A stretch of 31,664 bases of DNA. Origin: a virus. Below, in pieces: positions 3,574 through 29,563 of the stretch. The notes under the pieces were generated by a model. The model was not told the origin of the DNA. It saw only the letters and a list, made by a program, of their open reading frames with translations, and ran no database searches. A program made the position numbers and the translations under genes. Positions within the stretch are counted from its first letter, which is position 1, and each line of letters starts with the position of its first letter. The stretch is taken from positions 1-31,664 of the IMG/VR virus record IMGVR_UViG_3300020442_003840; one strand, given 5' to 3'.

Positions 3574-3915
3574 TTAGACAACTCCTTTTCTAACAAATGC
3601 CATCCCTTCAACGACTCTTGTTTTTCTAGAACCATCATCTAAAACCACATCATAAACGTACCTACCTTCATTTAAAGTGGCAGTTTGTTCATCTGTTAAT
3701 CTTATAGAAATAATACCATCATTTGGAACAACAAAACTAACAGCAAAGGCAACTTTATTTGCTTCAGCAGCCCCAGAATGTTTTGCTAATTTTGCTTCAC
3801 CAGTATATCCATTCAAATCCAAAGCACTATTACCAGAACTACTTGCAAGAGTAAAAACTTGCTCAAAGTCTGTTCCGGTATTAATTGTCAGATTATTTAC
3901 ATATACGGCAGACAT
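3574..3915 (-). CDS. Small probable virion protein, 113 aa
   Basis: Unrecognised by name. The pattern is a compact beta domain: NNLTINTGTDFEQVFTL, LNGYTGEAKLAKH, an acidic turn, then ISIRLTDEQTATLNEGRYVYDVVL and a final strand. The layout 'G.Y.a.a....f....G.i.i.lt.e.T..L..G.Y.YDV.l.d' is familiar from small baseplate or upper-fibre attachment domains, somewhat like BppU N-terminal domains, but I cannot prove this. It is the first gene after a late-promoter-like sequence (3964-3971), with a leader of roughly 40 bases, and begins the run leading to gp13, gp14 and gp15. No Shine-Dalgarno sequence is evident before its ATG. Confidence 0.8.
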   Translation of the reverse strand: MSAVYVNNLTINTGTDFEQVFTLASSSGNSALDLNGYTGEAKLAKHSGAAEANKVAFAVSFVVPNDGIISIRLTDEQTATLNEGRYVYDVVLDDGSRKTRVVEGMAFVRKGVV

Positions 3916-11564: not shown

Positions 11565-11567
11565 TTT

Positions 11568-13139
11568 TTAAAATTCCAGAATAATTTTGATGTCTTCTTT
11601 TTGTCTTAAGTTTCTAATAACAGCAGGTCTATTATCCACATAAACTATGTCACCTGTTGTATTATTTATCTCAGGACTAGAAAGTCCAGATGTAAATTCT
11701 ACACCAAGATTTATAACTTTATTTGAAACTACTGTAGTAATTCCAGAAAAATTAGAGTCGATACTAGCACTAAATCCACCAGCAGACTTTGAAATAACAT
11801 TAGTAGAATTGAATTGCAAAATATCTCCAGTAGTAGAGTCAAAGAATGATGATACACCAATAAAATCTGTATGGTTTACACCATTACCGCCATTGTAGTA
11901 CAGTGACCTATCTTGATAATATTTTAAAACTTTAGTTTCAGTATCATATGAAACAACATACCCATAAGCATATCCACTACCAACTTGTTGCTCAATCCTA
12001 TCTCCAATCTCTACTGTTCCAGCAACAGAATTAAGTTTTGCTCCAAACACTGCAGAAAATGTATCACCTTCATAATTTTCTGTTGTAATACCTGTAGTAT
12101 CATAAATTTTAGGATTTTTTACAATACCAATTTGTGCAAATTCTGTATCTATTGGGAAATTTCTAGTAGAGTCATCAAATCTTGCATAGATTAAAATTTT
12201 ATCTGCTCCCAATTCAGTGTAAATATCATAACCATGTCCTTTTGATGGTGGAATAATTGGGATAAGTTGAGCAAAAACTCCAGGAACTGTAGTTGCTGTT
12301 GTACCCAAATCAATCAAGGCAAAAGTATAATTTTTACCACCCGCAGTAACAATTACATTATTAATTCTTCCACTAGTATCAACCTCTAAAGAAACTCTGC
12401 CTCCACTACCATCACCAACTATGTTAGCACTAGTTCCATTGGGTATTGTATATCCAGAACCTTTATTTTCAACATAAACTTTCTTTATCTGATTCTCGTT
12501 TGTAAAAGAATCTCCATTTTCCCTAACAGATACTATGGCAGCATCTGTGGAAGTATCCCAATCATTTGGTAATGTAATGTATTCTGTAGAATCAAATTTA
12601 ATTAGATCACTGGGTGATATAGTAAACAAATACTTCCAAGTATATCCATCACTAAGTTTAGTTGGTTCTAAGTCTGTAAATGTAGGTTCTACCTGTGAGG
12701 CATTACCAGATGTTTTAATTCCAGTAGCACCATTATCAATACAAATGTATACTCTATAATCTGAATTAATTACATAATAATCTGCATCATATAATCTCAT
12801 GGCTCCTGTAGTTGGAGATGGATTAACTACTGAATAGTCTGGTCTATACATTTCATATTGTCTACCAGATTGCCATTCAATCTTTCTGACAACTCTTTTT
12901 ATATTACCAGCTGTTATCTTCTTACCATACATAATGGTTGAACCATAATGATGAAGATAGTCAGTATTATCAATTGGATTTGGAGTATTATCATTCCAAT
13001 TTGCAACTCGTCCAAATCCAGATGTTGATGGATTTGATAATCCTACAAAAACGTAAAACGAATTTGATTCGTCATTGACAGAGTTTACAAAACTATTGGC
13101 ATTTAATATCCTTAATTTGTCTGTAACAATTGCGGGCAT
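11568..13139 (-). CDS. 8: Baseplate wedge protein gp8
   Basis: This 523-aa protein has the gp8 N-terminus: MPAIVTDKLRILNANSFVN, SFYVFVGLSNPS, a YGKKITAGNIKRVVRKIEW segment and DGYTWKYLFTISPSDLIKF. T4 gp8 is about 334 aa and forms a dimer in each baseplate wedge, between gp10/gp7 and gp6. This one is enlarged by a middle and C-terminal part that includes a KGSGYTIPNGTSANIVGDGS repeat unit (residues about 230-260) like those in gp14 and gp7. It starts in a 53-base gap after gp7 that holds a late promoter motif, so it can be transcribed separately from gp7. Its stop is three bases before the next gene. Confidence 0.93.
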   Translation of the reverse strand: MPAIVTDKLRILNANSFVNSVNDESNSFYVFVGLSNPSTSGFGRVANWNDNTPNPIDNTDYLHHYGSTIMYGKKITAGNIKRVVRKIEWQSGRQYEMYRPDYSVVNPSPTTGAMRLYDADYYVINSDYRVYICIDNGATGIKTSGNASQVEPTFTDLEPTKLSDGYTWKYLFTISPSDLIKFDSTEYITLPNDWDTSTDAAIVSVRENGDSFTNENQIKKVYVENKGSGYTIPNGTSANIVGDGSGGRVSLEVDTSGRINNVIVTAGGKNYTFALIDLGTTATTVPGVFAQLIPIIPPSKGHGYDIYTELGADKILIYARFDDSTRNFPIDTEFAQIGIVKNPKIYDTTGITTENYEGDTFSAVFGAKLNSVAGTVEIGDRIEQQVGSGYAYGYVVSYDTETKVLKYYQDRSLYYNGGNGVNHTDFIGVSSFFDSTTGDILQFNSTNVISKSAGGFSASIDSNFSGITTVVSNKVINLGVEFTSGLSSPEINNTTGDIVYVDNRPAVIRNLRQKEDIKIILEF

Positions 13140-13158
13140 CTTATTATGGTTTTTTCTA

Positions 13159-13166
13159 TATTTATA
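13159..13166 (-). promoter_or_regulatory. Late promoter TATAAATA before gp8
   Basis: The minus strand reads CATTATAAATATAG, an exact TATAAATA octamer, 19 bases upstream of the gp8 ATG in a short non-coding gap. This is the T4 late promoter element read by the gp55-type sigma factor. It would start transcription just after the very long gp7 gene and so uncouple the supply of gp8 and the downstream genes from gp7 mRNA. Confidence 0.75.
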
Positions 13167-13179
13167 ATGAGTTAATCAG

Positions 13180-13199
13180 TCTCTAGAAATTTCTAGAGA
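13180..13199. terminator. 20-bp perfect palindrome over the gp7 stop codon
   Basis: The sequence TCTCTAGAAATTTCTAGAGA is a perfect inverted repeat covering the gp7 TAG stop (13193-13195). In RNA it could form a hairpin of about eight A/U-rich pairs with a tetraloop. No U-tract follows, so a classical intrinsic terminator is doubtful. Alternatives are an mRNA 3'-end protecting hairpin or a protein-binding site placed before the gp8 late promoter. The 'terminator' label is tentative. Confidence 0.4.
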
Positions 13200-16100
13200 A
13201 GTTGTTTAGCAAGAGCTCCTGAACCTCTAAGTCCAGCACCCCTTCTCTGTAATGTTGGGAATGTAGATAATCCAGCACTAACATCATATGCAGACACTCC
13301 AATTGAAACTGGTGTGGAAGATCTGGTAAATCCAGATAATCTACCCCAAGAGAATTTAGCAACACCAGCACCTATTACGCCGGTTGTGGCAATACCAACA
13401 TGATTAAATCCAGAATGGACATTACATATAATTTTACCGGTTGCAGGTTTGAAGTCTGAGATGTTATATACATTATCAATACAAGTTGTTCCTACTCCAA
13501 CAACTTCTGAATCACTACCTAAGATGGAAGTTACCCCATCACCAACATGAGTATCAAAGATATAAATTCTAAAGTCGGTAGATAATCCTGCATATGGACT
13601 TAAAGTTCCATCTAATTCAAATTCAATTGCTAATGGAACTCCAATACCTGCAGTTGTTCCAATTCCAATTATATCACCATCAAATCCTTCTACATTAGTT
13701 ACTCCAGAAATGCCGTCTGTTATAGCAGTTGGTGGAGCAACCAATACTGGAGGAACCTTAGATTGGTCATAACCAGATCCAGGATTAGTAATAACTGGTG
13801 ATGTAATTGAACCATTAACAATAGAAACAGTCGCTGTAGCAGTTGTTCCTACCCCAACACCAAGAATTGGTGGTGGTGCAATACTAATATCAAGAGAAGA
13901 ACCACTATATCCACTTCCAGCTTCATATATGGTTAAACCAGAAATGGTTCCAGCAACAGAAACAACAGCACTAATACCAGCAGCAACTGGATCTATATTT
14001 GGATAATTGATAATTATTCCATCAAAAGAAATATCAGCAGGATCTTCATAATTAAAGAATTGTGCATTATCAACAAAGAGCTCAGTATCTGTTATATCAA
14101 AATAATCTATGATTTTTGCTGTTGGATAAACTTGAGTCTCAATAGAATCTCTAGCTTTGGAAACAATTTCTCCTTCCAAAATCATATCAGTCTTCTGCTT
14201 AATCCATTTGAATGGTTTGTAGTTATCATCATCAATTCCAGGACCACCATATAGAGGTGTCCTAGCAAGGTCAAATCCAGCAATTGCAGTAACAACTCTA
14301 GGATCTTGAGCAGTTGTAACTCCCAGATTTGTATTATTTCTTAGGAGTTCTACTTCATCACCAACTTTTATAGATTCATTTGAAAGAACTACTGAACTAT
14401 CTGCAGCACTTCCTCTGTAGAAGAACATTGCCACCTTATCATTTGCCTTTGGTGGAGTGGTGAATTCCATTACAGTTCCACCCTCAAATGTGTAAGCCTC
14501 ATATGGTTTTTGCAGAATACCATTGACAAATATAATCAATAATGGTGCAAACTCAATTAGTTGAGAATCTGGGTCTCTTCTGTTCTTTTCAAAACTAAGC
14601 AATTCAGTTTGATATCTTAATTCAAACTTTGTAGTAACTCCATCCTGTAAAGATGAAATATCATCAATATAATCAACTTGACCAAATTGCCATGCGGAGA
14701 AAGAATCGGAGAAGACCTCAAGAACATCAAGTTCAAAATGCTTTATTGGTTCTGCTAATCCAATTGCCGTTACAAGACCAACTGCTCTTGCTATATCACC
14801 TTTCTTGAATCCATAACCCTTTCTTGCGGTAAAGAAATCTTCAACAACATATTGTCCACCAGGAGCAACTGTTCTCTTAGGAGTAGTTCCATTTTCTACT
14901 GCAGTAGTAACAATACCAACTAAGGTACTAATTGCAGAAGCAACAGTGGCACATTTTGGTGAACCAGAATCTACAGTAATTGTATTATCAAATACTTGAG
15001 TTCTTGTGGTATGACCACCAACAGTAATTGTCTCATTTCTCATGGCTTGGATTGCCATATCTCTTGCTTCTAAGAATGCATAAACTGTTTCTGCCTCTTC
15101 ACCAGCAACATGAGCTCCTGTGATATACAACATAGCAGCATCAACAGTTAAATCATTTCCACCAAACTTAAGGTTATAAAGCATTGCTTGAAGCAAATCT
15201 GCAATGTCATCCTTACAATCTTGAGGATTTGCTGTTGGAATTACAAATGATGGATATGCTGCAAGCATTCTTCCATATGCAATATCTGCAATAAAGTCTT
15301 TGTTTGCACCTATTAAATCAGCAGCATCGAAGAAAATGTCGCCGTTAGTATTCAAATCTGAATTTCCAACTCTTAGATTGAGTAGGGTTCCAAGTCCAGT
15401 ATCAGTTGTTGTACCAATTCCAAGTCTTGATTGACCAATAACTCCCAAGTTTGAATATGTTGGTGGTTCAATACCAAGTTGTGGAGTCACATATCCAGAT
15501 CCACCATCAACAATGTTGAACTTCAATCTTCCGCCAGTCTCATATAGAGATGCGCCAACATTGACTGTAAGTGTAGTAGATGATGGAGTTGTAAGAACAT
15601 CAAGGTTTGCTCCAGAAGCTGGATCATGTGAACGTGGATAGAGGTGTTGTGTTCTATGGAAATCTTGATTACAAGTAAATGTCAGTGATTGATCTGCAAT
15701 GGTAATAGTATTTGCATCTGTTAATCCGTGTGCTCCAGTGAAGGTTAATGTGAGAACACCAGTTAACTGTGCATAATGTGCTGTGCTAATACTTAAAGTA
15801 CCACCAATGCTTCTAGTGACACAGTTTGTAGTTGCAGATACAAATTTATGATCATTACGATCCACTTCTACTGTAATATTTGCAGCAGATCCTGTATGAT
15901 TTGCATCTGTTAGTGCAATAGAAACAGGTTCTCTATAAGCAGATCCAAAATTCAAGTCCCTGTAGTATGGATATACACTTCCCATTCCAACATAAGTATG
16001 GGCAAAGGAAGAGATGCCAATGTTGACTAACACGGTATTAGAACCAGTGATATCAGCAATACCAAATACATTTCCACCTGGTTGTGTTCCATCTGGGAAA

Positions 16101-19100
16101 ATAGTTGTGGTGACACCAGATTTGACTGTTCCACCACTTACATATGTGTGAGGAATTGTAGTAATTCCAACGTCTACAGTAAATTGTGTGGAATTTAGAA
16201 CTGAAAGGACACCAAAGACATCATATGCCTTATAAGAATTCTTAGTACCACCATTTGGATATGGGAATATAGTACTAGTAACACCTGAATGTGGAGCTGC
16301 ACATGAAAACTCAATATCAGCGAAACGTACTGACTTACCAGCAGTTGCATAACTATCTGAAGAGGTAGTAACAGTTGCAATTCCTGTTAAATGATCATAT
16401 ACGAAGTTTGAAATACCAACAACTGGACCGTCATAGTATTCATCACAAGAGAACTCTAAGTTTTCTAACCAAACATCTGGTGAATTTAGATTATGATCTC
16501 CAACTGTTGTAATTTCTAAGAATCCACTTTCATTATTATAAGATACTGTATCGATTCCAAGAGCAGTACCATAAGTTGGAATTCCAACAACATCAATAAT
16601 AGTTCCACCATAACCAACTATTGGTAAAACACTTGCACCTTGTAATGGTGCATATCCTAGTCCTGGCGTCGATCCAAATGATATAATGACTCCACCTCTT
16701 GGAAGTTGATTTTGGTTAACATCAGATTCAGAAATTACAATAGAACCATTTGAAGAAGTAATTCCAGAGAAAACTGCTGTTGTAATTCCAGCAGAAAGAT
16801 CCTCTTGAATTGAGAAATTATTAGACTGATTATTACTAGTGGTGGGAGCTTGATATATTCCATTAATAAGAATAATTCCAGCACCACCACTAGTTCCCAG
16901 ACCAACAGTATTGGCACCACCAACAGTTAATCTATAATCCTGATCTAATCCAGTAAATTCCTCTGAAATATTATCAAAAATTTGATTACTTTCATAACTC
17001 GATCTCAAGAAGACTCTACCGAAGAATTGAGATCTTGCCTCTGGTAAATTATCAATATCTTCGAAAAGTTGATCTTCTAAAATACCTCCAGGAGCATCAG
17101 TGAAGTGAACTTTATTTTCTGTGATTGTGTAAGAACCTCTGTATACATCAAACGTAGAGAATCCAACGTGTGTTGTTGCTATAGTTCCTGCTACACCCCT
17201 TTCAACATTTAATAGTGCAAAAGTTCCACCAAAAGAAATAGGTCCTGCTGCAAGAGTTCCAAAACCAACATTTAGAACCTTAACATATTCATCTTCAACC
17301 TTCATCAAATCGCCAAGTACGACGGATGTAATACCACTCATGTGCAGCATACTATCAGCAACACTAACATTTCCACCAACATTCTCAAATGATAAGAGGG
17401 AATATGATATAGGTGCTTGTATCAAATTATCAACAGTAATAAGAGTCTTGGAAAGTTTTTCAACCATTTCAAACTCATGAGCATTACCAGAACCGATAGA
17501 TGTAAATGTAACTGCAATTCCAAGTTCAGCATTTGCTTTTGTAGTTGCTACTCTCATCTTGCCACTATTATCTTTTATTGCAAATACTGTAGATGGTAGA
17601 AGTGTGGTATTAATACCATTATGATCAGGAGTCTCAACAATCTGCATAGGAGCAGATTCTATTGAAATAAAAGATGATTTTGGTCTATAGACTAACTCTT
17701 CACCAGTGCTAAAGAAATGCTCAGTGATATTTAAAGTTGATGTATCTGAAGAAAGATTTATTACATCCTCATCAGTTGGATCAAATGCTTTTACAAAGAT
17801 TGGAGTTCCATCATGAGTTAAATCGAAAGTTGTCTTAAATAAATCATCATCATTTGCAGCGATGAACTTAGAAAGTTTCATCGACTCTGTAATATTGCCA
17901 TATTGCAGATCTTCAGGAGGATTTGGAACATCATAATCATGATGGAAGTTTTCATTAAATGCAGATATCTGAATATCACCACCACCCTGATATTGTGGAT
18001 CTGGATAGAACTTAAATGCTCCAGTATATCCATCCATTTCCATACCAAAAGTACCAATACCACTAGTGCTACCGATTGATAAGAATGGATACTGCATTGT
18101 ATATGCATTCTTTCTAACATCAAAGGTATCAGTAATAACCATCAGTTGATGTAAGGCACTCGTTTCACCAATACTGACTCTTACAGTTGACTTCATTGAT
18201 GTTTGTTGACCAATATCAAATGATTTGATGGTCGTAGATGCAATAGAAGTATTAACAAAGCTAGAATCAAATGTTACTGTTCTTTCATCTCCATCTGGTT
18301 GACCAGCTTTTTTGAATCTATAAGTTCCAATACCAGCAGCAACTGTTCCAAAACCAACATTTCTAGTTCTTACAAAAACTGGATGACCAGTGTCATTGTT
18401 ATAAACTATATTTACATTTCCATCCTCTATGGTAGCGTCAAAAGTTCCGATAGATTCGGTAGTAATATCAGCCTCATCACTATTGAAGTAGAACTCTGCA
18501 ATATTTGTATTTTGACCATCGTGATCTACATACAATTCAACATAATTCATCTCTCTCGTAGTATCATCTAAAACATGAATATACGAATGAATTGCTTCCA
18601 TTCTATTAGTCGGTGAAGACATTATTACTTGAGTACTACCAACTCCAACTGCACTTGTAATACCAATGACATCAACAAATCCTACAGATATGGATGATAC
18701 ACCAACAACAAAATTAGTAAATCCAGTATCTAAATGCTTAACATTATAAGATGTATTATAAATCTCAAGTGGAACATATTGTAAGAATATTTCACCCTGA
18801 TTATTTGTGCTGGCGGTAATTTCAGCAAAATCATCAGACATATTGGTGATTGCACCCTTTTGCATCGTATAAGAATCGCCTTGATTGTTATTAAGAACGA
18901 TTACTTCAGTAAACATCACTTGAGAATAATCAACGCTAGTAGCTTGAACTAAGAACTTACTGCATTGTCTGTTTGCTGTGATTTCTGTTAAGTTTAATTC
19001 AGGATCAAGTACTAAGTTATTGTTAGAGAATTGTGGACTAATATCATCCATTTCCAAAACTCTATTACTCTTGACTTCAACATAATCTGAAAGTTTTGTA

Positions 19101-22100
19101 GTTTTGAGTTCAACAAACTTAGAGATATCATTGGCAACATCAACCTCAGCATCTCTAGCTTCATCGAAGTTGTTAATAGTATCAACTCTCTCTTCACTTA
19201 AGAAGTCGATAGCAAGATCTGTGTTTTCTTTTGGAACTATAGCAATAGTTCCAGAATGTTGAAGAATCTCTGTATCAACAAAATTCTTCAATCCAGATGG
19301 GTGAACTAAATTATTGACAGGACTAACAACTTCCTCCCAAGTTTTTTTAGTCTGAATTGAATATGAAAGATTCTGATAGTAATCGTTATCTGGAATTACT
19401 TGAGTATCATCATTTAACTTTCCAGTATCATCTTGCCATCCAAAATTCTTAACAACAGAATAAGATATCTCAAATAGACCTTCAGATATATTAACTTCCT
19501 CTAATGTTGCTATAGATCCAGATTGTGTACCTCTGATAACATCACCAACTTCAAAGGGATAAATTCCTGATACTTTAACAGTATTCCCTTCATAAGTTAA
19601 AACTGTAGATTTAGTTCTTGTGAAAACGCCGTTAACTTGAACTTCAATATCTTCATTATTCTGGAATGAAGAAAACTCCGTATGTACCTCAAACCTTGGA
19701 TATACATTAGCATTAATAACAGTTCCATAGACATTTCCTGTCATTCCAATACCAGGACCGATGTCAGTCAATTCTGAAAGATTATATTCAAGTCTTCTAG
19801 GTATATCAGTACCACCAAATGTGTATGATTGAACAGTAAAGAATCCATATCCATAATCCTCGGAATTAAATCCATCACCTTCAGTTCCATACTTAGTAAG
19901 ACCTTCAACAAATATTTGATCACCAACTTCGAAAGGTTCTACAGCAAATCCATTAAGTGGTGTAACCAATGTACATGTTACGACACCAGAACCAACGGAA
20001 CCTTCATATGCTTGAATTGCAACACCATTTGTATTATTAATCGTTTTAACCTCAAGGTATGCATCACCCATAAGACCTTTTGGAGGACTTTCAACATTCA
20101 CTTTTATGATGCTAGCTCCAGCCATTTCTGCATCTAAGTGTCCAGAATCAATTTTTTCTTTTGTGAGAGTATTGTATAATACTAATCTTGGTGGTGTTAA
20201 ATACTGAGATCCTCCATCTAATACATCAACTGATGCAACAGCTTCCGAATTCTTTGTAATTAATTGAGATGGAACCTGAGCAATAGGTCTTAGAGTTTTA
20301 TCAGAAGAATAATCAAAACCTTCATTTAGAATTTCGATTTGATTTACATTACCTACAGCAGCAGACTTGGTGAGGAGATTTGCACCATCACCCAAAACTG
20401 AATTTGAACCAGTAAATTCAGGTAAAACTTTATATCCATCTCCAGGAGAAGTTATTGTAATACCACTAATTCCACCCAAAGCGGATTTAGAAGTTGTAGT
20501 GTATTTCAATACATCACATTCAGATTGTACATATGATGTTTTTTCTGGAGGTCTTGAATGTGATAATACAAATGTTGTAGCAGCAATTCCAGAAACCAAA
20601 TATTTTCCAGTAAAGAAACTATTCTCATATGTTATTTCTGAATAATTACTTACATTTTGATTATCTGCAGTGCTAATATATCCAGATTTTTCCAGAGCAT
20701 AATATAATGGTGATGGGACATTAGCATCATAAGTTATTGCTACATATGCACTGGTAAATCCAACAGTATTGAAACCAACAACAGAGAATGTAGTTGTAGA
20801 TCCTGTAGAAACAAACTCATCTTTGAATTCCTGATCATAGAAGAATTTGAAGTTATATCCAAGTAAAGAAGTATCACTTACATCAAATTTGACATCATTA
20901 TTTTTTAAAATCTTAAGTGGTGGATTAATTTGACTTATTTCATGTGTGGCAGCAGGAGCAGTGGTTATACCAACAACTATTGGTGGATCTGCCAAATAAT
21001 CTGGTACAGTTTCACAAAGTTGAATATGATCATCATCAACTCTATAAACAAAGTAAATTCCAGACGATAAACCAACAGGAGGATTATCTGAATTATAAAC
21101 TACCTTTTCACCATTAGCAAAAGGATGACCTACTATTTGTATTTGATTAGTATTTGTATTGAATCCTACTGATGAGAATTCAATGGGATTTATCAATAAC
21201 TTTTCATTGAATATATCATACTTAACTCTTATAGCAGTTGAAGTTCCAATACCAACAGAAAGATTTGGTTTTACGTCCAAATTAATAAAATCACCATTAG
21301 TCAAATTATGTGAAGTTGATACCGAAACAACAGTATTAATTCTCTGAACATTTGCAAGTGTTTGGAAATAGTCAGACTTTATGTTATAAGATCCAATATC
21401 TGTCCCCTGTCCACGGAAGAATAATCCATCAGTTGTAGTTGTTAATCCAATTTGAGTTACAATTCCAATATGATCATGAGATTTTCTTATGACATATACA
21501 GTTTGCTCATTACCAGCAGGTAAATCAAATACAGCACTACCTGCAGTATTTGCAACTCCAATTGAAGAAATGCCAGAGTTCTTTGATAGGATTACTCTTT
21601 GATTGGTTTTAAATGGATGATTGGGTAGATATATTGATTGTGATGGTATAGAAACTGTATGATTAGTTTGAAGACCGATGTTATAGGTTACGGCAAGTCC
21701 TACACCAGCAGTTAAACCAATACCTAAAGAATTATGTGGATTAAAATATACAGAATCATTATATGAAGATTCAAAAGAATCAATTTCCTTACTGAAAGTG
21801 AACTTATCAGGATAGAAGTAAACCGGTGATGTTGCAGTATGTGCAATTGAAGTATATTCTCTAGAAACTCTCAGAACATTGAGATCATTGTAAATGTTCT
21901 GAAGGGTGAATATTTCTGTTCCAATTCCAATACTATTACCAATTGAAATTCCTTCAGGTATTCTAGGTAATGTAATATCAACATCAACTGCACTGCCAGA
22001 AGAAATTTCAGTTAACAAGGATGATGTAATGGAATTAACTCCAATCTGGTAAAATCCAGCTAACTTAGTGGCGATTGTGGATAATCCGGAGACATTAATA

Positions 22101-25100
22101 TAATCTAAATTCTTTAAATCATGGTAAGGTGCTATCTTTACTTCTACTGTTTGATCATCTTTCTTAGTAAATATTGCATTCTCATATAAAAGAGTAGATG
22201 TTTCTAAAGAAACTATATCTTTACCTTCCAGTTCAGATACAAATGCAAATAGTCCACTTCCACCATCATCTCCGTCAGCAAAATCCAATTGATCTTCAAC
22301 TTTATAATTTACACCTGCACTCAATATTTCAATTTCTTCAATAGAACCTTTTGTAATAGACTCTATTCGAGTTGATTGTACAAATTCTTCATTAGATTCA
22401 GTAATAAAATCATTCTCAGCATTTTCTTCGGAAACCGAATATGGGAATGTATTTCTAAGTAAGGATGAGTTATTAAAATCAAAATCCTGATTTAACTCAA
22501 CATTTTCCTCAAGTAGAGGAGATCTGTATCTATCTCCAATAAAGTATGGGAAAACTCCAGCATTGTTGTTATTACCATCTACTATTGATGGTGCAAAATA
22601 TGCGTAAGTTCCTGTAGGAAACTCTGGTGTTAAACAATATCTGCCATTATATTGATCAAGATCTCCAGAATCATCGAAAACATAATCATCTACAAAGAAT
22701 CCTAATGGTAGATTGGGTGGTCTATCAGAAACATTTGCAGAACTTTTTGTATAACCAGACTCCAATCGTTTGATATCTGAGTTAATGTCTTGTGGGTCAG
22801 AATATCCAAATGATCCATAAATTGGATTTCCATCGTAAGCCCATCCAATTATTGGTGAATGTGCAACTCCTTCGTCATTATACTTATTGAAAATAGCATC
22901 AGAATATGCACAATGTGCATATTGCAAATTATTATCTGGTGTCGAAATAATTAAATCAGTTGCTTCTTCTACTGAAGTTGCAGCATCTTTAAACAATACA
23001 TTATTATTAACAGAAAGTGATCTTACCTTAGATTGCAAAACAGCATTTCTACCAGCACTTTCTACCGTAAGTACCGTACCTGAAGTTGAATATCCTATAC
23101 CCGTGTTTATAACAATAACTTCAGTAAGTTTACCATTATTAATTACGGGTCTAAACTGAGCACCAGTTCCCTCACCATGAACAACAATAGATGGTGTGGA
23201 GAAATATTCTTCACCACCACCACTTACAATTACCTCAGTAATCTGCCCATTAATGTTAACTATTGGGGAAATACTGGCATTTTTTCCATTCTTTACAACA
23301 ATATTTGGATTATCTTCATAATTTAAAACTTCAGATCCAATACTCGTTCCACTATCATAAATGTATGCGTCTATAATTTCACCGCGAATTACTGGAGTCG
23401 CAACAATTGATGCTGAAACTGTTGTACTGCCAACTCCAACTGAAGTATAATTGATATTAAGTGAAAAATCTGGATACTTGAACATTTGATATCCAGAACC
23501 AGCAGATGTCAAGTTTACTGGTTTTCTTCTATCAAAATTGGTTCTATCTGCAGCAAGACTAAACTGATTATCAGTAGTCTTGAGAACATAATATTGACTT
23601 GTCGATGACAGTCCTGTTATTGCACTAGTTTCATACTCATAGTTAATAAGATCTCCATCATTAAATCCATGATTAGTAAAATTAATAGTATTGGTGTTTA
23701 TAGAGACACCAGATGGTGAAACTCTAAGTAACCTATTAGTATACCCACTACCACCATTTAAAACTTGCAAACCAATTAACTGTCGGTTTGGTTTAGTTAA
23801 GAAGTTATGTACACCAACTGTCCCAACTGTTGTAAATCCAACAGTGTTGATACCAGCATTATAATCACCAATCTTTTCATACAAGAATACTGTTTTATCA
23901 CTCAATACAGAAACATAATACTCAGCATCTTTAACTAAAGTTCTTCCAGTATCTTCATTTCCACCAAGATAAGTCCCTATACCCAGAGGTTCATACACTC
24001 CTGGATCGTAAATAAGTGGTTGACCATCAGCAAGGTTATGTGGAGTGGGAAATGTTATAGAGTCGGTGTTTATATCGACACCACCACCTTCAGTTAACTG
24101 TTTAGCGTTAAATGGTAATGATCTTCTCCTATTTTCAATAATAGGTTCAAATGCTGCTCCATCTCCATTTCCACCACTAAAACCAATAGAAGCAATTGTA
24201 TTAATCTCAAAATCTATTGGATCTACAAAAGCATCTACAACAGTACCAGATATAACTGCTTGAATCTTTGCACCACCAACAGAAGATTCGATAGCTGGTG
24301 GACTGAATACATCATAACCAGTTCCACCATTCAATACATTAACCTCAGTTAATGGTCCATAATAAATTTTATCATCACATTTATAACTGTATATTTCAAC
24401 ACCATCTAAAAGCATTCCAATTGCACCTGGTGATGTCGCATCAGATTGACCATCACCAATATTTGGATGTAATGGAAATTTCTTAAGTATTTTTTGTGGG
24501 GATATAACTTTTTCTTTCTGTGCTAATACAGTAAAGTTATGAACTCCTTCTGGAATAAATTGGAAGGTTAGATAATTAGGACTACCAATAGAACTATTCG
24601 ATGCATACAATCTAATTGTATTATCTCCTGTTACATCCGCATAATATGTACCTGGAAATAGACCATCAATAGGTTCTCCAGATGCAGTGTATACAACTTC
24701 ACCACCATCAAAAAAGGATAACTTTACACCAGGATTAAATTTTATTGTCGAATACTTACCAGTCGTTACAACATAATCTGTCAATTCTGCAACATCATAT
24801 GAGTATAATGATTTTGTTATCTCATCTGATGGAAGTGAATTTGATGCAACATACATGTATTGATCATCTTCATTATATACATTTTGTACATCTGAGACAA
24901 TCTGGTCAAATTCTGTAGCAACGTTTGTGACGTTTGCAAAATTAATTTTTCTTCTAAGATCGTAATTAAAGGAAGGGTTTAAAGTAAAACTATCTGTAGT
25001 TCCTACCTGATTGTTAAAAATCGAATTTACTACGAGATTTGCTGCTATTACAGTCTGAGAATCTCTAGTAACTATCTCAACTATATCACCAACCTTCAAA

Positions 25101-26521
25101 ACCGATCTATCGGGTGCATATGCTAATGATACTTGAGATGTAGATCCTGTAGCAAAAGAATCGATTTCAATTCTGGATGAAGTATTATAAGTCCAACTAT
25201 TAGCAAAAATTTGCTTTTTGGTTCTATCAAAAGCGGGATTTGTAATTTTTTCACCAATAGTCTTAACACTAATTTCTTCTCCGGGAGAAATTGGTGAATT
25301 TCTAGTTGTAACTTTATAATCAGAAATGATACCAGTAATTCTAAATTCAACCTTATTGGTTAAATCACCATGACCATATCCATAATAAGTCTCACTTGAT
25401 GTAATAGTAGATGCTACACCAACTTCTTCAGTTATACCAGAACAATTGAAAAACTCATTAATACTTTTATCTGTATAAGAAATAGTATTACTTCCTACTT
25501 TTAATACACCACTCTTAGGGAATCCAATGGTTGTATCAACAGCAATGCTTTTAGCACCAACTGGTGCAGCTGCTGTATTTTTAGTATTTCCAGTAATTAC
25601 AAAATCACCAAATACTGGTGGGAAAGAATCATCATAACCAAAGAAAAGAAATACTTTATAGTAAGTTTTAGAACTTCTCTGAAATACATCAACTTCAGAT
25701 ATTGTTGCATAAGTTCCTAAATCTGTACTCTTATAGATTGTCTGTCCCTCTAATGAGGTAAGATCACCACTTATGGATTCACACATTACAACTTCTCTTC
25801 TCAGATTAGTTGCAGAAGAGGGTTTAATAGTCCTTTGTTCTAAGTCAAATACTCTTGGTTTCTCTCCATATAGAACGCCAAATAAAATTCTAAATGATTC
25901 TTCTGTTCCTTTAGATCCATAAAAAGTTTTTGCTTCTTTGATAAAATTAGAGATATCAATCCCTGGAGCAAAATCAACACCCTCTAAACCGGGAGTTAAA
26001 GCATACTTAATTTTTTTATAGAATTGTTGTAAGAATACAGAGCTTAAATTATTTAAAGTTGTGGAGGCAGTATGAGATGCTGCTGATGACTCACTGAAAA
26101 TTAACTCACCTTTGTTATATCCATAATCATACCCAGTTACACCAGAAAATCCACGAACACAACCATGGAATTCGGTTGGAGTTTTACTGGTATATGTGAT
26201 GATTTCATCATCAATTTTAAATAATCCGTAAGATTCTGGATATCCTTTAGTGCTTGATACTTGAATAGTTGTAGTAGAACTACCAATATCTGAAGACAGT
26301 GTTGCACTATCAACAATAGTTTCTGCAATTAATGAATCAATATTCAAATATTGATCCAAATTATCAGAAAGATCTACTGGACCTCCCTGATATTCTTGTG
26401 AAATATAGTATTGTTTTAAAAATTCTGCGAATTTTGGATTATCACTTACAATAAATTCAGGTAATTGACTATCAACAATATCTTGAATTTGTACCCTGGG
26501 AGAGAAACCAGTTTCTATCAT
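13193..26521 (-). CDS. 7: Giant baseplate wedge initiator gp7, 4442 aa
   Basis: This intact 4,442-aa reading frame lies between gp6 and gp8, the gene 7 position. T4 gp7 is about 1,032 aa and starts wedge assembly by binding gp10 and then gp8 and gp6. The N-terminus (MIETGFSPRVQIQDIVDSQL, then FLKQYYISQEYQGGPVDL and SFRILFGVLYGEKPRVFDL near residue 210) and the C-terminus (FSWGRLSGFTRSSTP, then GLSTFPTLQRRGAGLR) look like cyanophage gp7. Between them are repeated beta modules: EII.YT units near 100-145, 355, 1540 and 3095; 'H.F..G..V.Y' units near 584, 812, 937, 1624 and 1785; G.GY units; a YHYH-like domain near 1215-1310; a CxxxH-like repeat region near 3355-3650; and a helical module near 3727-3874. 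An AGAGG overlaps the end of gp6 and decides the start, two bases after its stop. No frameshift or stop interrupts it. Positions are estimates. Confidence 0.92.
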   Translation of the reverse strand: MIETGFSPRVQIQDIVDSQLPEFIVSDNPKFAEFLKQYYISQEYQGGPVDLSDNLDQYLNIDSLIAETIVDSATLSSDIGSSTTTIQVSSTKGYPESYGLFKIDDEIITYTSKTPTEFHGCVRGFSGVTGYDYGYNKGELIFSESSAASHTASTTLNNLSSVFLQQFYKKIKYALTPGLEGVDFAPGIDISNFIKEAKTFYGSKGTEESFRILFGVLYGEKPRVFDLEQRTIKPSSATNLRREVVMCESISGDLTSLEGQTIYKSTDLGTYATISEVDVFQRSSKTYYKVFLFFGYDDSFPPVFGDFVITGNTKNTAAAPVGAKSIAVDTTIGFPKSGVLKVGSNTISYTDKSINEFFNCSGITEEVGVASTITSSETYYGYGHGDLTNKVEFRITGIISDYKVTTRNSPISPGEEISVKTIGEKITNPAFDRTKKQIFANSWTYNTSSRIEIDSFATGSTSQVSLAYAPDRSVLKVGDIVEIVTRDSQTVIAANLVVNSIFNNQVGTTDSFTLNPSFNYDLRRKINFANVTNVATEFDQIVSDVQNVYNEDDQYMYVASNSLPSDEITKSLYSYDVAELTDYVVTTGKYSTIKFNPGVKLSFFDGGEVVYTASGEPIDGLFPGTYYADVTGDNTIRLYASNSSIGSPNYLTFQFIPEGVHNFTVLAQKEKVISPQKILKKFPLHPNIGDGQSDATSPGAIGMLLDGVEIYSYKCDDKIYYGPLTEVNVLNGGTGYDVFSPPAIESSVGGAKIQAVISGTVVDAFVDPIDFEINTIASIGFSGGNGDGAAFEPIIENRRRSLPFNAKQLTEGGGVDINTDSITFPTPHNLADGQPLIYDPGVYEPLGIGTYLGGNEDTGRTLVKDAEYYVSVLSDKTVFLYEKIGDYNAGINTVGFTTVGTVGVHNFLTKPNRQLIGLQVLNGGSGYTNRLLRVSPSGVSINTNTINFTNHGFNDGDLINYEYETSAITGLSSTSQYYVLKTTDNQFSLAADRTNFDRRKPVNLTSAGSGYQMFKYPDFSLNINYTSVGVGSTTVSASIVATPVIRGEIIDAYIYDSGTSIGSEVLNYEDNPNIVVKNGKNASISPIVNINGQITEVIVSGGGEEYFSTPSIVVHGEGTGAQFRPVINNGKLTEVIVINTGIGYSTSGTVLTVESAGRNAVLQSKVRSLSVNNNVLFKDAATSVEEATDLIISTPDNNLQYAHCAYSDAIFNKYNDEGVAHSPIIGWAYDGNPIYGSFGYSDPQDINSDIKRLESGYTKSSANVSDRPPNLPLGFFVDDYVFDDSGDLDQYNGRYCLTPEFPTGTYAYFAPSIVDGNNNNAGVFPYFIGDRYRSPLLEENVELNQDFDFNNSSLLRNTFPYSVSEENAENDFITESNEEFVQSTRIESITKGSIEEIEILSAGVNYKVEDQLDFADGDDGGSGLFAFVSELEGKDIVSLETSTLLYENAIFTKKDDQTVEVKIAPYHDLKNLDYINVSGLSTIATKLAGFYQIGVNSITSSLLTEISSGSAVDVDITLPRIPEGISIGNSIGIGTEIFTLQNIYNDLNVLRVSREYTSIAHTATSPVYFYPDKFTFSKEIDSFESSYNDSVYFNPHNSLGIGLTAGVGLAVTYNIGLQTNHTVSIPSQSIYLPNHPFKTNQRVILSKNSGISSIGVANTAGSAVFDLPAGNEQTVYVIRKSHDHIGIVTQIGLTTTTDGLFFRGQGTDIGSYNIKSDYFQTLANVQRINTVVSVSTSHNLTNGDFINLDVKPNLSVGIGTSTAIRVKYDIFNEKLLINPIEFSSVGFNTNTNQIQIVGHPFANGEKVVYNSDNPPVGLSSGIYFVYRVDDDHIQLCETVPDYLADPPIVVGITTAPAATHEISQINPPLKILKNNDVKFDVSDTSLLGYNFKFFYDQEFKDEFVSTGSTTTFSVVGFNTVGFTSAYVAITYDANVPSPLYYALEKSGYISTADNQNVSNYSEITYENSFFTGKYLVSGIAATTFVLSHSRPPEKTSYVQSECDVLKYTTTSKSALGGISGITITSPGDGYKVLPEFTGSNSVLGDGANLLTKSAAVGNVNQIEILNEGFDYSSDKTLRPIAQVPSQLITKNSEAVASVDVLDGGSQYLTPPRLVLYNTLTKEKIDSGHLDAEMAGASIIKVNVESPPKGLMGDAYLEVKTINNTNGVAIQAYEGSVGSGVVTCTLVTPLNGFAVEPFEVGDQIFVEGLTKYGTEGDGFNSEDYGYGFFTVQSYTFGGTDIPRRLEYNLSELTDIGPGIGMTGNVYGTVINANVYPRFEVHTEFSSFQNNEDIEVQVNGVFTRTKSTVLTYEGNTVKVSGIYPFEVGDVIRGTQSGSIATLEEVNISEGLFEISYSVVKNFGWQDDTGKLNDDTQVIPDNDYYQNLSYSIQTKKTWEEVVSPVNNLVHPSGLKNFVDTEILQHSGTIAIVPKENTDLAIDFLSEERVDTINNFDEARDAEVDVANDISKFVELKTTKLSDYVEVKSNRVLEMDDISPQFSNNNLVLDPELNLTEITANRQCSKFLVQATSVDYSQVMFTEVIVLNNNQGDSYTMQKGAITNMSDDFAEITASTNNQGEIFLQYVPLEIYNTSYNVKHLDTGFTNFVVGVSSISVGFVDVIGITSAVGVGSTQVIMSSPTNRMEAIHSYIHVLDDTTREMNYVELYVDHDGQNTNIAEFYFNSDEADITTESIGTFDATIEDGNVNIVYNNDTGHPVFVRTRNVGFGTVAAGIGTYRFKKAGQPDGDERTVTFDSSFVNTSIASTTIKSFDIGQQTSMKSTVRVSIGETSALHQLMVITDTFDVRKNAYTMQYPFLSIGSTSGIGTFGMEMDGYTGAFKFYPDPQYQGGGDIQISAFNENFHHDYDVPNPPEDLQYGNITESMKLSKFIAANDDDLFKTTFDLTHDGTPIFVKAFDPTDEDVINLSSDTSTLNITEHFFSTGEELVYRPKSSFISIESAPMQIVETPDHNGINTTLLPSTVFAIKDNSGKMRVATTKANAELGIAVTFTSIGSGNAHEFEMVEKLSKTLITVDNLIQAPISYSLLSFENVGGNVSVADSMLHMSGITSVVLGDLMKVEDEYVKVLNVGFGTLAAGPISFGGTFALLNVERGVAGTIATTHVGFSTFDVYRGSYTITENKVHFTDAPGGILEDQLFEDIDNLPEARSQFFGRVFLRSSYESNQIFDNISEEFTGLDQDYRLTVGGANTVGLGTSGGAGIILINGIYQAPTTSNNQSNNFSIQEDLSAGITTAVFSGITSSNGSIVISESDVNQNQLPRGGVIISFGSTPGLGYAPLQGASVLPIVGYGGTIIDVVGIPTYGTALGIDTVSYNNESGFLEITTVGDHNLNSPDVWLENLEFSCDEYYDGPVVGISNFVYDHLTGIATVTTSSDSYATAGKSVRFADIEFSCAAPHSGVTSTIFPYPNGGTKNSYKAYDVFGVLSVLNSTQFTVDVGITTIPHTYVSGGTVKSGVTTTIFPDGTQPGGNVFGIADITGSNTVLVNIGISSFAHTYVGMGSVYPYYRDLNFGSAYREPVSIALTDANHTGSAANITVEVDRNDHKFVSATTNCVTRSIGGTLSISTAHYAQLTGVLTLTFTGAHGLTDANTITIADQSLTFTCNQDFHRTQHLYPRSHDPASGANLDVLTTPSSTTLTVNVGASLYETGGRLKFNIVDGGSGYVTPQLGIEPPTYSNLGVIGQSRLGIGTTTDTGLGTLLNLRVGNSDLNTNGDIFFDAADLIGANKDFIADIAYGRMLAAYPSFVIPTANPQDCKDDIADLLQAMLYNLKFGGNDLTVDAAMLYITGAHVAGEEAETVYAFLEARDMAIQAMRNETITVGGHTTRTQVFDNTITVDSGSPKCATVASAISTLVGIVTTAVENGTTPKRTVAPGGQYVVEDFFTARKGYGFKKGDIARAVGLVTAIGLAEPIKHFELDVLEVFSDSFSAWQFGQVDYIDDISSLQDGVTTKFELRYQTELLSFEKNRRDPDSQLIEFAPLLIIFVNGILQKPYEAYTFEGGTVMEFTTPPKANDKVAMFFYRGSAADSSVVLSNESIKVGDEVELLRNNTNLGVTTAQDPRVVTAIAGFDLARTPLYGGPGIDDDNYKPFKWIKQKTDMILEGEIVSKARDSIETQVYPTAKIIDYFDITDTELFVDNAQFFNYEDPADISFDGIIINYPNIDPVAAGISAVVSVAGTISGLTIYEAGSGYSGSSLDISIAPPPILGVGVGTTATATVSIVNGSITSPVITNPGSGYDQSKVPPVLVAPPTAITDGISGVTNVEGFDGDIIGIGTTAGIGVPLAIEFELDGTLSPYAGLSTDFRIYIFDTHVGDGVTSILGSDSEVVGVGTTCIDNVYNISDFKPATGKIICNVHSGFNHVGIATTGVIGAGVAKFSWGRLSGFTRSSTPVSIGVSAYDVSAGLSTFPTLQRRGAGLRGSGALAKQLL
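15530..16460 (-). repeat. Sub-repeat region of gp7 (FSC/FTC modules)
   Basis: Residues about 3355-3660 of gp7 carry at least three related units. Each begins with FSCDEYY, FSCAAPHSG or FTCNQDFHR and then has a strand-rich block ending near FTVDVGI or LTVNVGA. The similarity is in the protein, not in near-identical DNA, so the copies are old. Their role is unknown; they look like tandem beta domains in a fibrous part of the protein. Confidence 0.6.
22590..22880 (-). other. YHYH-like domain coding segment within gp7
   Basis: Residues about 1215-1310 of gp7 read SPIIGWAYDGNPIYGSFGYS, then a linker with ESGYTKSS and FFVDDYVFDDSGDLDQYNGR, then CLTPEFPTGTYAYFAP. The order 'GWAYDG.PIYG ... DLD..NGR....PE.P.GTY.Y' is the signature of the YHYH domain family (Pfam YHYH). 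The namesake YHYH residues read YAYF here, so any metal-site histidines of the family may be lost. This is recognition by eye, without a search. Confidence 0.65.
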
Positions 26522-26522
26522 A

Positions 26523-28445
26523 TTACAACCTCTTTATTTCTCCGTTTGAATAGCTAGATCTATAATAATTTTCGGATGTGAAGACTACACCAGACGTATC
26601 ATCTCCAGATGCAATAACATCTTTAACGATATTTATCTCACTTTTGTCAATGCTAAATGTCAGATACAAATCTTTCAATCCAATGACATCATTAGACTCT
26701 GGAATTGCCTGAATTTCAATAATATCTCTTGGTCTGGAAGTTTCTGTAATAACGATAGTATTTAATAGAATTTCACCTCTTTCATAGTCTACAGTTCCTG
26801 CATCTTGAACTACAATAATTGTTGAACGGTTACCATCTGCATCAATACCTTCATCTCTAACAATTGCAATAGTTCCTTTTCTATATTCGCCATCTTCATC
26901 TTGAATTGGCACATCAGTAATATAAACGTCTTGAGTTTCACCTAAAACTTTAAATCCTGTTGATTTGATATTTTTACCATCAGGATGTACATGGAATCTA
27001 TTTCCATAGCATATTTCATATTGAGTTTGAGCATTAATTAATACTTTCAAATCTCGTCTGATTTTAACTTTAGTAATATTTGAAGTAATACCTTCATCAG
27101 TATTATCAATTACCTGTTGAATTTTACTATATTTGAACCTTCCACCAAAAGAATTTAAGTCAGTAGAATTTGAATACGTTGTTAAAGCATTCAATACTTT
27201 AGTTTTCAAATCTCCAGCACTTGCTACTTTAGAATTATTAAAATATACTGCCGAATCGATCTCAACATATAGTACTTTGAGGTCAATTATCTGAGGATCA
27301 ATACCAGTAATAGAGTATAATTTCAGTTTACTTTTAATTTCCTGCTTATCAAAATCGGAAATGAATGTACCATTCTTAGGTTTAATACTAATATAAACCT
27401 TACCAAATTCTGGTGGACTTAATTCTTCACCACCAACAACAGAAGCAGACTCTGTTTGTGGGAAAATCTTTGATTTGAGAATGGTTTCATAATCGTTTGC
27501 TGTAACCGCTCTGTATTGTGAAGAATAGAGGCGTGGAGCATAGTTTCTTATGGAATCTATACTCTCTATGTCAGCACCATTTTGAGCGGCATTAACGGTC
27601 GTTATAACGCTATTTGAGGCAATTATTGGATTAGTACTATCATTGAGGAATGATCCTGCAAAAGCAAAATTTGTTGCTCCATTACCATCAGCACCATTAC
27701 TAACAATATAAGTGACGGTAATTACATCTCCCTCGGTTAATCCCCTTCCAAAAGTTCCATCACCAAAAAGAATTTCATACTTTTCGTCTTTTACTTCTTG
27801 GAGTAAGAAAATTTCAGATCCACCATCAACATCAAAAATATTATCAACCATGTTGAGTGATCTTCCCAAACCAGTAGCATTGGTTGGTCTAACATAAACC
27901 TTTATGGTAGATGTATCAATGAATGAGTTGTTTAAGATAAACTTCTGATTGATAGAACCATCAAAAGTAAACTGCTTTTTAAGGAAAGTTCCCTCTACTA
28001 TTTTAAGATTATTGAACGTTGCAACTCCATCAATAACAGAAGCACTTACATCTTCTGGTATGGAGAATACGTATGATGACTCAGAGACCGTCCCAGTACA
28101 CACCAGACCCGCTGGTATGGTCAGTGTGGAGGTGTTTGCATCAGTTTGGGCAGTGAACGATACATGGGCAGTAGCGGACGTTCTGGAGCGTGGTACGTAC
28201 CCGATGTTTCTTGCCAAAGAAACTACATTTTCCCTTAAAGTTGCCGATTCTAAGAAAGATTCATTGACAACTAAGTTGGAATTGAAAGCACTTATATATG
28301 TGTTATATGCTAAAGTATCAATTAAGACCGAAAAATTAGATCCTTCAAAATCAAAATCACTAAAAGATGAGTTTGATCGAAGATAATCTTTAATCGATGC
28401 TTTTATTTGATCGAAATCTAGGTTAGTATACTTTGTAAAAGGCAT
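26523..28445 (-). CDS. 6: Baseplate wedge protein gp6
   Basis: This 640-aa protein is close to T4 gp6 (about 660 aa). The N-terminal block matches T4 in pattern: DYLRSNSSFSDFDFEGSNFS, VLIDTLAYNTYISAFNSNL, ESFLESATLRENVV and ARNIGYVPRS. Later FGDGTFGRGLTEGDVITVTY and YIVSNGADGNGATNF resemble the T4 'FGEGE...EYISTNGADANGAVGF'. RAVTANDYETIL also parallels T4 'CVTATDYDTF'. Gp6 is a baseplate J-like protein that forms the inner ring of the baseplate and joins neighbouring wedges. It starts three bases after gp25 and ends one base before gp7, so it belongs to the same transcript. No anomaly was seen. Confidence 0.96.
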   Translation of the reverse strand: MPFTKYTNLDFDQIKASIKDYLRSNSSFSDFDFEGSNFSVLIDTLAYNTYISAFNSNLVVNESFLESATLRENVVSLARNIGYVPRSRTSATAHVSFTAQTDANTSTLTIPAGLVCTGTVSESSYVFSIPEDVSASVIDGVATFNNLKIVEGTFLKKQFTFDGSINQKFILNNSFIDTSTIKVYVRPTNATGLGRSLNMVDNIFDVDGGSEIFLLQEVKDEKYEILFGDGTFGRGLTEGDVITVTYIVSNGADGNGATNFAFAGSFLNDSTNPIIASNSVITTVNAAQNGADIESIDSIRNYAPRLYSSQYRAVTANDYETILKSKIFPQTESASVVGGEELSPPEFGKVYISIKPKNGTFISDFDKQEIKSKLKLYSITGIDPQIIDLKVLYVEIDSAVYFNNSKVASAGDLKTKVLNALTTYSNSTDLNSFGGRFKYSKIQQVIDNTDEGITSNITKVKIRRDLKVLINAQTQYEICYGNRFHVHPDGKNIKSTGFKVLGETQDVYITDVPIQDEDGEYRKGTIAIVRDEGIDADGNRSTIIVVQDAGTVDYERGEILLNTIVITETSRPRDIIEIQAIPESNDVIGLKDLYLTFSIDKSEINIVKDVIASGDDTSGVVFTSENYYRSSYSNGEIKRL

Positions 28446-28448
28446 TTT

Positions 28449-28850
28449 TTATCTCGTTGCCTCTAGGATGAATGAAAACTCTTGTGTTGGAAGTTCTTGT
28501 CCAATAATATTAAAGGATACAAGTACTTCAAATTCATTAATATCTGGTCTTGGGAAGACATCTACCTCAACATTATTAACTCTTGGTTCATAATTTTGAA
28601 TTACATTCTTAATTTGATCACGAATTACTGATGCCGTACCAATATCAACGAATTCAAATAAACTAGAACGTACATCTGATCCCAAATCAGGTGAAAAAAA
28701 CCTTTCATTGGGCATGGTTTCGACTAAATTTCGAATTGCACGTATAATTGCACTCTCATTCTTAAGAATGGTGAGATCCTTTGTTACTGGATGGGCATCA
28801 AAGGATAAACTTATGTCTTTAAATGACCTGGATACCCTTCGTACTGCCAT
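28449..28850 (-). CDS. 25: Baseplate wedge protein gp25
   Basis: This protein is 133 aa and T4 gp25 is 132 aa. It has the GPW/gp25 fold sequence: a run IIRAIRNLVETMPNERFF, SPDLGSDVRSSLFEF, then VIQNYEPRVNNVEVDV, matching the T4 NYEPRI segment with its conserved E-P-R. Gp25 sits at the inner wedge, binds gp6 and helps to set off sheath assembly. It opens the gp25-gp6-gp7 run of wedge genes, preceded by a near-match late promoter at 28883-28890. The ATG is chosen because the MAVRRVSRSFKDISL start gives the family length. The Shine-Dalgarno sequence is weak. Confidence 0.96.
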   Translation of the reverse strand: MAVRRVSRSFKDISLSFDAHPVTKDLTILKNESAIIRAIRNLVETMPNERFFSPDLGSDVRSSLFEFVDIGTASVIRDQIKNVIQNYEPRVNNVEVDVFPRPDINEFEVLVSFNIIGQELPTQEFSFILEATR

Positions 28851-28900: not shown

Positions 28901-29563
28901 TTATTTTATCCAAAAACCTTTTCTGAGGTAGTCTGAATCTTCAACATACTGATAATTTTCCATATTTCCCACTTCTTGGTCATTCCAAACAGGAATTGCA
29001 ACCGAATTTCCATATCTAAAGTCAGGATTTCTTCTAAAATGCACCTCAATTAACTTATCACCAATGAATTCGCAGTTTATCCAACCGTAACGATACAATC
29101 CAATGGTCGTTAAAATATTAGGATATGGTATTTCTTTATCTATTTTCTCCCATTTAGTAAATCTATAGAGATTATTCTCATCTTTATGCCCTTTAACAAT
29201 AAGTCTTTGTCTTTTTACATGATAATCGACGGAATGTTCCTGCATCCATTGGGGATAACATCCAGTCCTATCTTCATGATACTCATAATCGACTGAATAA
29301 TGGTCTCCTTCAAACACCTCACACCAAAATTCACCAGGATGTAGGTGTTCAGTATCCTTTTCTATATGTTCAATACGTGCATAACGTCCCATACCCATGA
29401 AATTCATACATGGGCGCACAATATAAAAACCAGGTTTAGGAACTTCCAATCCCGCAGGACCACAAGTATAACCTAAACGCTGGCTTAAAAACAGTTTGTT
29501 GTATATCCATAAATGCTGCGGAAGGATGCGGTTCCACTCTTCCGCAACAGTTTGGGCGTACAC
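28901..29563 (-). CDS. Conserved-looking protein of unknown function, 220 aa
   Basis: I do not recognise this family. The GTG start shares a base with the TAG stop of the 47-aa gene (TAGTG) and has AAGGA eight bases upstream, which supports GTG over later ATG codons. Notable segments are GFYIVRPCMNFMGMGRYARI at residues 45-64, then HLHPGEFWCEVFEGDHYSVD, and LYRYGWINCEFIGDKLIEVH near the end. It is rich in Y, W, H and acidic residues and has no signal peptide or membrane segment, so it is probably a soluble enzyme or binding protein. The GFYIVRP segment loosely recalls ATP-grasp-type strands, but I cannot support that fold. It ends the cassette directly before the gp25 late promoter. Confidence 0.85.
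   Translation of the reverse strand: MYAQTVAEEWNRILPQHLWIYNKLFLSQRLGYTCGPAGLEVPKPGFYIVRPCMNFMGMGRYARIEHIEKDTEHLHPGEFWCEVFEGDHYSVDYEYHEDRTGCYPQWMQEHSVDYHVKRQRLIVKGHKDENNLYRFTKWEKIDKEIPYPNILTTIGLYRYGWINCEFIGDKLIEVHFRRNPDFRYGNSVAIPVWNDQEVGNMENYQYVEDSDYLRKGFWIK

Follow-up and report, generated by a model that had tools for sequence, protein, structure and literature searches.

What is a baseplate protein of 4,442 residues made of, and does its size call for a special explanation? The gene that raises this question lies in a complete 31,664-base IMG/VR record, the whole of which is called the window here, and to judge from its sequence it is the gp7 gene of a T4-like cyanomyovirus. As discussed below, the length of the protein is ordinary. 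The unexpected part is a phycobiliprotein-like module, which went unnoticed in the first, sequence-only reading of this DNA.

An open reading frame scan and profile searches confirm the basic description given in that reading, a single unbroken frame, 13,329 bases long, flanked by gp6 and gp8. The frame starts with ATG and has no internal stops, and the record is free of N. The family phrog_2885, "baseplate wedge subunit" (profile length 4,179), matches residues 2-3724 with an E-value of 0, and the last 550 residues correspond to the end of the same profile. With phrog_2885 found at both ends, the earlier statement that this is a cyanophage gp7 whose two ends both look like gp7 also stands. 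Downstream of gp7 come gp8, a 2,410-aa DUF4815 protein, and then head-tail genes. The DUF4815 protein (4332-11564, minus strand; phrog_358) is VrlC/VriC-like, as annotated in relatives; it contains an 11-proline run and a GGWGWGSRSSSR stretch, and is another giant structural protein. Upstream of gp25 lie small minus-strand genes at 28901-29563 (220 aa) and 29875-30639 (254 aa), the latter encoding a protein that looks glycosyltransferase-like by eye.

Table 1. Positions in the window of the gp7 gene, its neighbours, and the segments recognized within the gp7 protein.
Feature	Position	Strand	Residues	Basis or remark
gp25	28449-28850			upstream of gp6
gp6 baseplate wedge	26523..28445	-		phrog_219, E 1e-199; upstream of gp7
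gp7 homologue, baseplate wedge subunit	13193..26521	-	4,442 aa	phrog_2885, E=0
N-terminal conserved core	25532..26494	-	aa 10-330	core profile, phrog_2885
YHYH domain	22592..22972	-	aa 1184-1310	PF14240, E 5e-26, 92 bits (cut-off 25)
Second core segment, 'DNDYYQNLSYSI...LVHPSG'	19232..19411	-	aa 2371-2430	motif in 11 homologues
gp7-specific middle region	16574..19231	-	aa 2431-3316	phrog_2885, 1.7e-190; no other family
Cassette module v1	15953..16573	-	aa 3317-3523	phrog_3442; phrog_17885 tail fiber protein, 3e-35
Cassette module v2	15527..15904	-	aa 3540-3665	phrog_1276, 2e-17; phrog_5342 tail fiber protein, 8e-10
Phycobiliprotein-like (globin-fold) module	14846..15349	-	aa 3725-3892	profile searches, predicted fold
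Cys3769 (module C45) of C-x-D-D	15215..15217	-		aligned with phycobiliprotein C-x-R-D
Cys3857 (module C133)	14951..14953	-		aligned with second beta-subunit attachment site, GDC
C-terminal gp7-specific domain	13196..14845	-	aa 3893-4442	phrog_2885, 3.5e-132
gp8 baseplate wedge	11568..13139	-		Pfam Phage-Gp8 (PF09215), 3e-12; phrog_438, 2e-152; downstream of gp7

The length of gp7 varies greatly among annotated relatives, where it was taken as the product of the gene after gp6. It runs from 874 aa in Pelagibacter phage Mosig through HTVC008M (1,016), T4 (1,032), S-H34 (1,942), S-CAM1 (3,032), S-PM2 (3,048), S-SRM01 (3,895), Bellamy (4,067), ACG-2014f (4,225), S-CAM7 (4,314), P-HM2 (4,454), S-T4 (4,749), S-SCSM2R (5,172), P-SSM2 (5,195), S-CREM1 (5,422), Syn9 (6,076), S-SM1 (6,180) and S-RIM8 (6,395) to 7,312 aa in P-SSM3, and open gp7 frames in viral contigs belonging to the same clade measure 3,583-4,727 aa where the extent of the contig permits. 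The 4,442 residues seen here are mid-range and ordinary for a cyanophage gp7, and need no special explanation. The early claim that the protein is over four times as long as T4 gp7 of about 1,032 aa is correct (4.3 times), and this ratio is what might suggest an unusual or record length peculiar to the window phage; set against the 4,454-7,312 aa proteins common in isolates and the frames of the same-clade contigs, however, the idea is scarcely credible, and with it falls the impression that the length is noteworthy. Large homologues do reach the virion. The product of S-SM1 T4-GC969, which is the 6,180-aa gp7 gene, is among the proteins detected by mass spectrometry in purified virions (PMC3037559), and the gp7 homologue ORF122 of S-CREM2 gave 91 unique peptides in such an analysis (PMC10665884), results that detect the protein and do not imply a full-length chain.

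A long frame might also arise from an assembly or sequencing artefact that fuses two genes, and some gp7 genes in the databases are in fact broken up, such as that of S-SKS1. Full-length colinear homologues argue strongly against this. The gp7 of S-SRM01 is colinear with residues 1-3436 of the window protein (47% identity) and that of P-SSM2 is 38% identical over residues 5-3658, with the last ~550 residues matching separately in both. The closest contig found, IMGVR_UViG_3300020442_004443 (G045/L103), encodes a 4,654-aa homologue in a single frame with the same order of blocks, 68.6% identical over 4,429 aligned residues. Differences between the two genes at the three codon positions are 0.24, 0.16 and 0.41, with third positions the most divergent, as expected for a protein that would be under purifying selection. 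Given this pattern, the single-frame homologue on a separate contig, and the colinear relatives, a chimeric join inside gp7 seems very unlikely, and a fused frame as the source of the gene was rejected as hardly worth entertaining. In the S-SKS1 record (L003), the region 16001-22997 has no CDS annotated over the start of gp7 and only shorter pieces further on, so that either the gene is broken there or the sequence probably contains errors. Likewise, in the 236 kb contig G002 (L026) the gp7 frame ends at 2,791 aa, compared with ~3,970 aa in its closest relatives, and a frameshift or split gene is possible there.

How much of T4 gp7 is left in this protein? Residues 160-300 correspond to the helical domain and the start of domain V of T4 gp7. 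A core profile built from cyanophage and pelagiphage proteins (window residues ~160-330) matches T4 gp7 at 731-759 with an E-value of 4e-8 in a search that included 2,000 shuffled sequences, and T4 gp7 matches phrog_2885 at 196-224 (1e-4), the same place as the core-profile match. Remote homology between the helical core and T4 gp7 is found, in other words, at the level of profiles. Profiles are indeed required, as direct BLAST of T4 gp7 against the window protein gives no match, and the Pfam families Gp7_helical, Gp7_5th and Gp7_6th match T4 gp7 and not the window protein. The N-terminal core profile matched nothing among PDB sequences. A structure model of this core (pLDDT 67) has a T4 baseplate chain, 5iv5_BJ, as its top Foldseek match (E 2.7e-3, TM 0.10), and was rejected as proof of a T4 fold on account of its poor quality.

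The profile of the second core segment matches T4 gp7 at about 865-902, ranking second among T4 and 2,000 shuffled sequences, which is suggestive of a counterpart of that part of T4 gp7. The motif that marks it, 'YYQ..SY.I...HP.G', follows the first motif after 417 residues in Mosig, 569 in HTVC008M, 1,659 in S-H34, 2,178 in the window protein, and about 2,760-2,855 in S-SM1, S-RIM8 and P-SSM3. Whereas the two core segments of T4 gp7 lie ~130 residues apart, those of the window protein are separated by ~2,180, and some 2,000 inserted residues apparently divide the T4 gp7 core in the cyanophage proteins. The YHYH domain sits within this insertion, and ~2,000 further residues follow the second core segment. 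A search with residues 1834-2833 as a single protein found no relative among viral contigs, and alignments were required to find them. The earlier comparison with T4 gave the size ratio correctly; what it overlooked is that no counterpart of the first ~640 residues of T4 gp7 can be detected in the window protein, and that the core is apparently split.

Further towards the C-terminus the protein takes on the character of a cassette. Differences of at least 25 aa between the window gp7 and 19 full-length relatives lie mostly within residues 3317-3892, where three modules match PHROG tail-fibre families. In the closest homologue, that of G045, the only such differences from the window protein are two insertions at 3403-3418, one of 97 aa and one of 121 aa. 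This comparison shows what look like gains and losses of tail-fibre modules at one permissive place, residues 3317-3892. The earlier suggestion that the protein grew by gaining modules, and not by fusing with its neighbours, is borne out by the cassette, and by gp6 and gp8, which remain separate genes. Comparison of the protein with itself found no internal repeat, so simple internal duplication does not seem to account for the growth of the window protein. The C-terminal domain beyond the cassette occurs in 99 phage records, at one place per record.

Several observations concern repeats and annotations of this group of proteins. The extra sequence at 3403-3418 in the G045/L103 protein consists of additional copies of v1, an expansion at the permissive site. 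In the gp14-like head-closure protein (phrog_460; 878-2305, minus strand), residues ~217-370 match GGxGY-type repeat segments, and such repeats are common to this protein, to the giant gp7, and to the tail-fibre profiles phrog_701, phrog_5342 and phrog_708. The sharing of these repeats with gp14 probably accounts for the annotation 'head closure Hc2' given to the gp7 of HTVC008M. PHROG families 701, 4406, 19630 and 18802, relatives of giant gp7 and tail proteins, are filed under 'head and packaging', which is probably a category error.

The last module of the cassette, which none of the 19 full-length relatives in the comparison has in its gp7, is of a different kind. Its own relatives occupy about 1,056 places in 350 phage records, all of them cyanophages except one unclassified marine virus. 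They are found in many cyanophage tail proteins as well as in gp7, including the gp7 of other phages such as P-HM2, with up to 8 copies per ORF at the loci examined. Searched against the PDB, a profile of 42 viral-contig copies matches phycobiliproteins only down to an E-value of 0.01 (best 6.7e-4), and 35 of its 36 matches to E 1 are phycobiliproteins. Pfam PF00502 (Phycobilisome) matches 31 of these 42 copies scanned singly, the best at 1e-6; two tail ORFs that hold several copies in tandem score 79.6 and 75.9 bits, and the module in a 4,173-aa gp7 (G056) scores 26.0 bits, where the curated cut-off is 22.2. The relationship holds in the other direction as well. A host profile built from 134 phycoerythrin-type subunits of bacterial genomes can be aligned to that of the module in hhalign across 135 columns (P 1.9e-7). 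Of the 2,736 phage ORFs searched with it, 27 score E<1e-3, every one of which carries the module; it finds nothing among reversed or shuffled ORFs. A template-free AlphaFold2 model of the module (pLDDT 88.9) points the same way, the top 50 Foldseek matches in the PDB all being phycoerythrins or phycocyanins (probability 1.00, TM 0.59-0.69, best E 1.1e-3). The window copy scanned alone gives no PF00502 match above the cut-off, scoring 8.9 bits with 1 of 5,000 shuffles higher, and is assigned to the module family on its 45-79% identity to homologous copies, the 79% being with the copy in L103. Alignments begin at about residue 35-38 of the phycobiliproteins, part-way through helix A, and the X-Y helices that serve alpha-beta pairing are absent from them.

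Residues 3725-3892 could instead be an unrelated helical domain that resembles phycobiliproteins by chance or convergence. The low score of the window copy by itself would fit this, helical bundles are prone to fold-search matches and the Foldseek E-value is modest, AlphaFold may lean on remembered phycobiliproteins, and the PDB holds so many related phycobiliproteins that the match count is not independent. The sequence profiles, however, agree in both directions independently of fold, the reversed and shuffled controls are empty, tail ORFs score several-fold over the curated Pfam cut-off, both cysteine sites fall into register in a colinear alignment, and the module is confined to cyanophages and one unclassified marine virus. 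A chance resemblance is accordingly judged quite improbable, and from profiles and predicted fold the module is very probably a phycobiliprotein-like domain that starts part-way through helix A.

Does such a domain bind pigment? The two cysteines are highly conserved: the first (C45) is Cys in 96% of 199 aligned copies, with Asp three positions on in 98%, and the second (C133) is Cys in 94% of 161. In many phycobiliproteins C-x-R-D is the motif for covalent bilin attachment (PMC10151467). The module departs from it in having Asp for Arg, the window copy reading CKDD. The cysteine pair would fit bilin binding or a disulfide alike, and decides neither.

Genome context offers a lead. The sample comprised 36 large genomes and contigs, of which 19 combine the module with a gene of the CpeT bilin lyase family (PF06206); 8 carry the module without CpeT, 9 have neither of them, and CpeT never occurs without the module. 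This association has a Fisher probability of 2.6e-4, or 2.7e-3 within the cyanophages when T4 and two pelagiphages are left aside, in a sample of related rather than independent genomes that is limited in size by the small number of gp6-selected contigs above 90 kb; it is similar when five contigs fetched for carrying the module are removed, the isolates S-CREM1 and S-WAM2 also having been picked for it. The distance from cpeT to a gene carrying the module is under 4.5 kb in 8 of the 19 genomes, against 2.1 expected (p 7e-4); in S-WAM2, cpeT precedes by ~1.3 kb the gene for a 4,759-aa tail protein that contains many of the phycobiliprotein-like modules. In the S-WAM2 record (L266) the cpeT gene, annotated 'chromophore lyase', occupies 3191-3715 and the tail gene 5002-18001, and spacing of the two genes is similar in S-PM2, S-CAM1, S-CAM3 and S-RIM32. 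The proximity may have another source, a hot spot for gaining genes in which cpeT might sit, and the link between module and CpeT would be a lead rather than proof. No association with bilin reductase (PF05996) was found, the gene being present in 2 of the 20 records with the module and in 3 of the 8 without it.

Two accounts of the cysteines can be weighed on this evidence. In the first, they form a disulfide or aid folding and the module binds no pigment. The near-equal conservation of the two residues, the replacement of the CxRD arginine by Asp, and phage bilin reductase genes that do not co-occur with the module all speak for it, and this account is somewhat favoured. On the other side, the two positions are separate bilin sites in phycobiliproteins, not a disulfide pair, and all 19 of the 19 CpeT-bearing genomes carry the module. 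In the second account, cyanophages would chromophorylate their own virions, the phage T-type lyase CpeT attaching bilin to modules in tail fibres and gp7. This is offered as a bold proposal and an unlikely one, though if it were true the phage bilin genes would gain a phage-made substrate. In P-HM2, which infects Prochlorococcus MED4, cpeT and a bilin reductase gene accompany a gp7 that contains the module. Prochlorococcus lacks standard phycobilisomes, and a review calls the benefit of bilin genes to its phages unclear (PMC2984593).

All told, the window gp7 is likely to be a T4-like gp7 with a split core that has grown by cassette and acquired a phycobiliprotein-like virion module. By homology, the T4-like core would most likely hold gp6 in each baseplate wedge as it does in T4, with the ~2,000 residues between the core segments and the ~2,000 appended after the second forming outward-facing bulk outside the baseplate. 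Tail-fibre modules would enter and leave at residues 3317-3892, just before the gp7-specific C-terminal domain. A cyanobacterial host is the probable source of the phycobiliprotein-like module, which would then have spread and been tandemly duplicated among cyanophage tail proteins; today it most likely serves the virion as a compact helical unit exposed at the surface.

The open-access papers searched contain no description of the module, and none of them brings PF00502 together with phage; InterPro may already list the Pfam match. The module joins two things that have been studied separately, the giant unexplained tail proteins of cyanophages and the phage bilin genes cpeT, pebS, ho1 and pcyA, a puzzle that is greatest in the phages of Prochlorococcus. 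Even with no bilin attached, the recruitment of an antenna fold from the host as a recurring structural unit of the virion would be an unexpected case of domestication.

Among known systems, T4 gp7 has the same position between gp6 and gp8, the helical segment with 'YSTKG...FKVLY', and probably the 'VHPxG' segment. Closer at hand are P-SSM2 gp7 and the S-SRM01 baseplate wedge initiator (phrog_2885), with the same gene order gp25-gp6-gp7-gp8, colinear sequence, a scale of thousands of residues, the YHYH domain and the C-terminal gp7 domain; to a gp7 of this type the window protein adds v1, v2 and the phycobiliprotein-like module at 3317-3892. With phycobiliproteins, that is the beta subunits of phycoerythrin and phycocyanin (PF00502), the module shares the predicted fold, the order of helices from helix A on, and both cysteine positions of the bilin sites, and most copies have 'GN' ahead of the first Cys. 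It differs in having no X-Y helices and CxDD in place of CxRD, and in being part of structural proteins where a phycobiliprotein is a free antenna subunit. The bilin biosynthesis-associated globins are likewise phycobiliprotein homologues that are not light-harvesting antennae, and some of them bind biliverdin even though they lack CxRD (PMC10151467); unlike the phage module, they are free-standing cellular proteins encoded near bilin genes.
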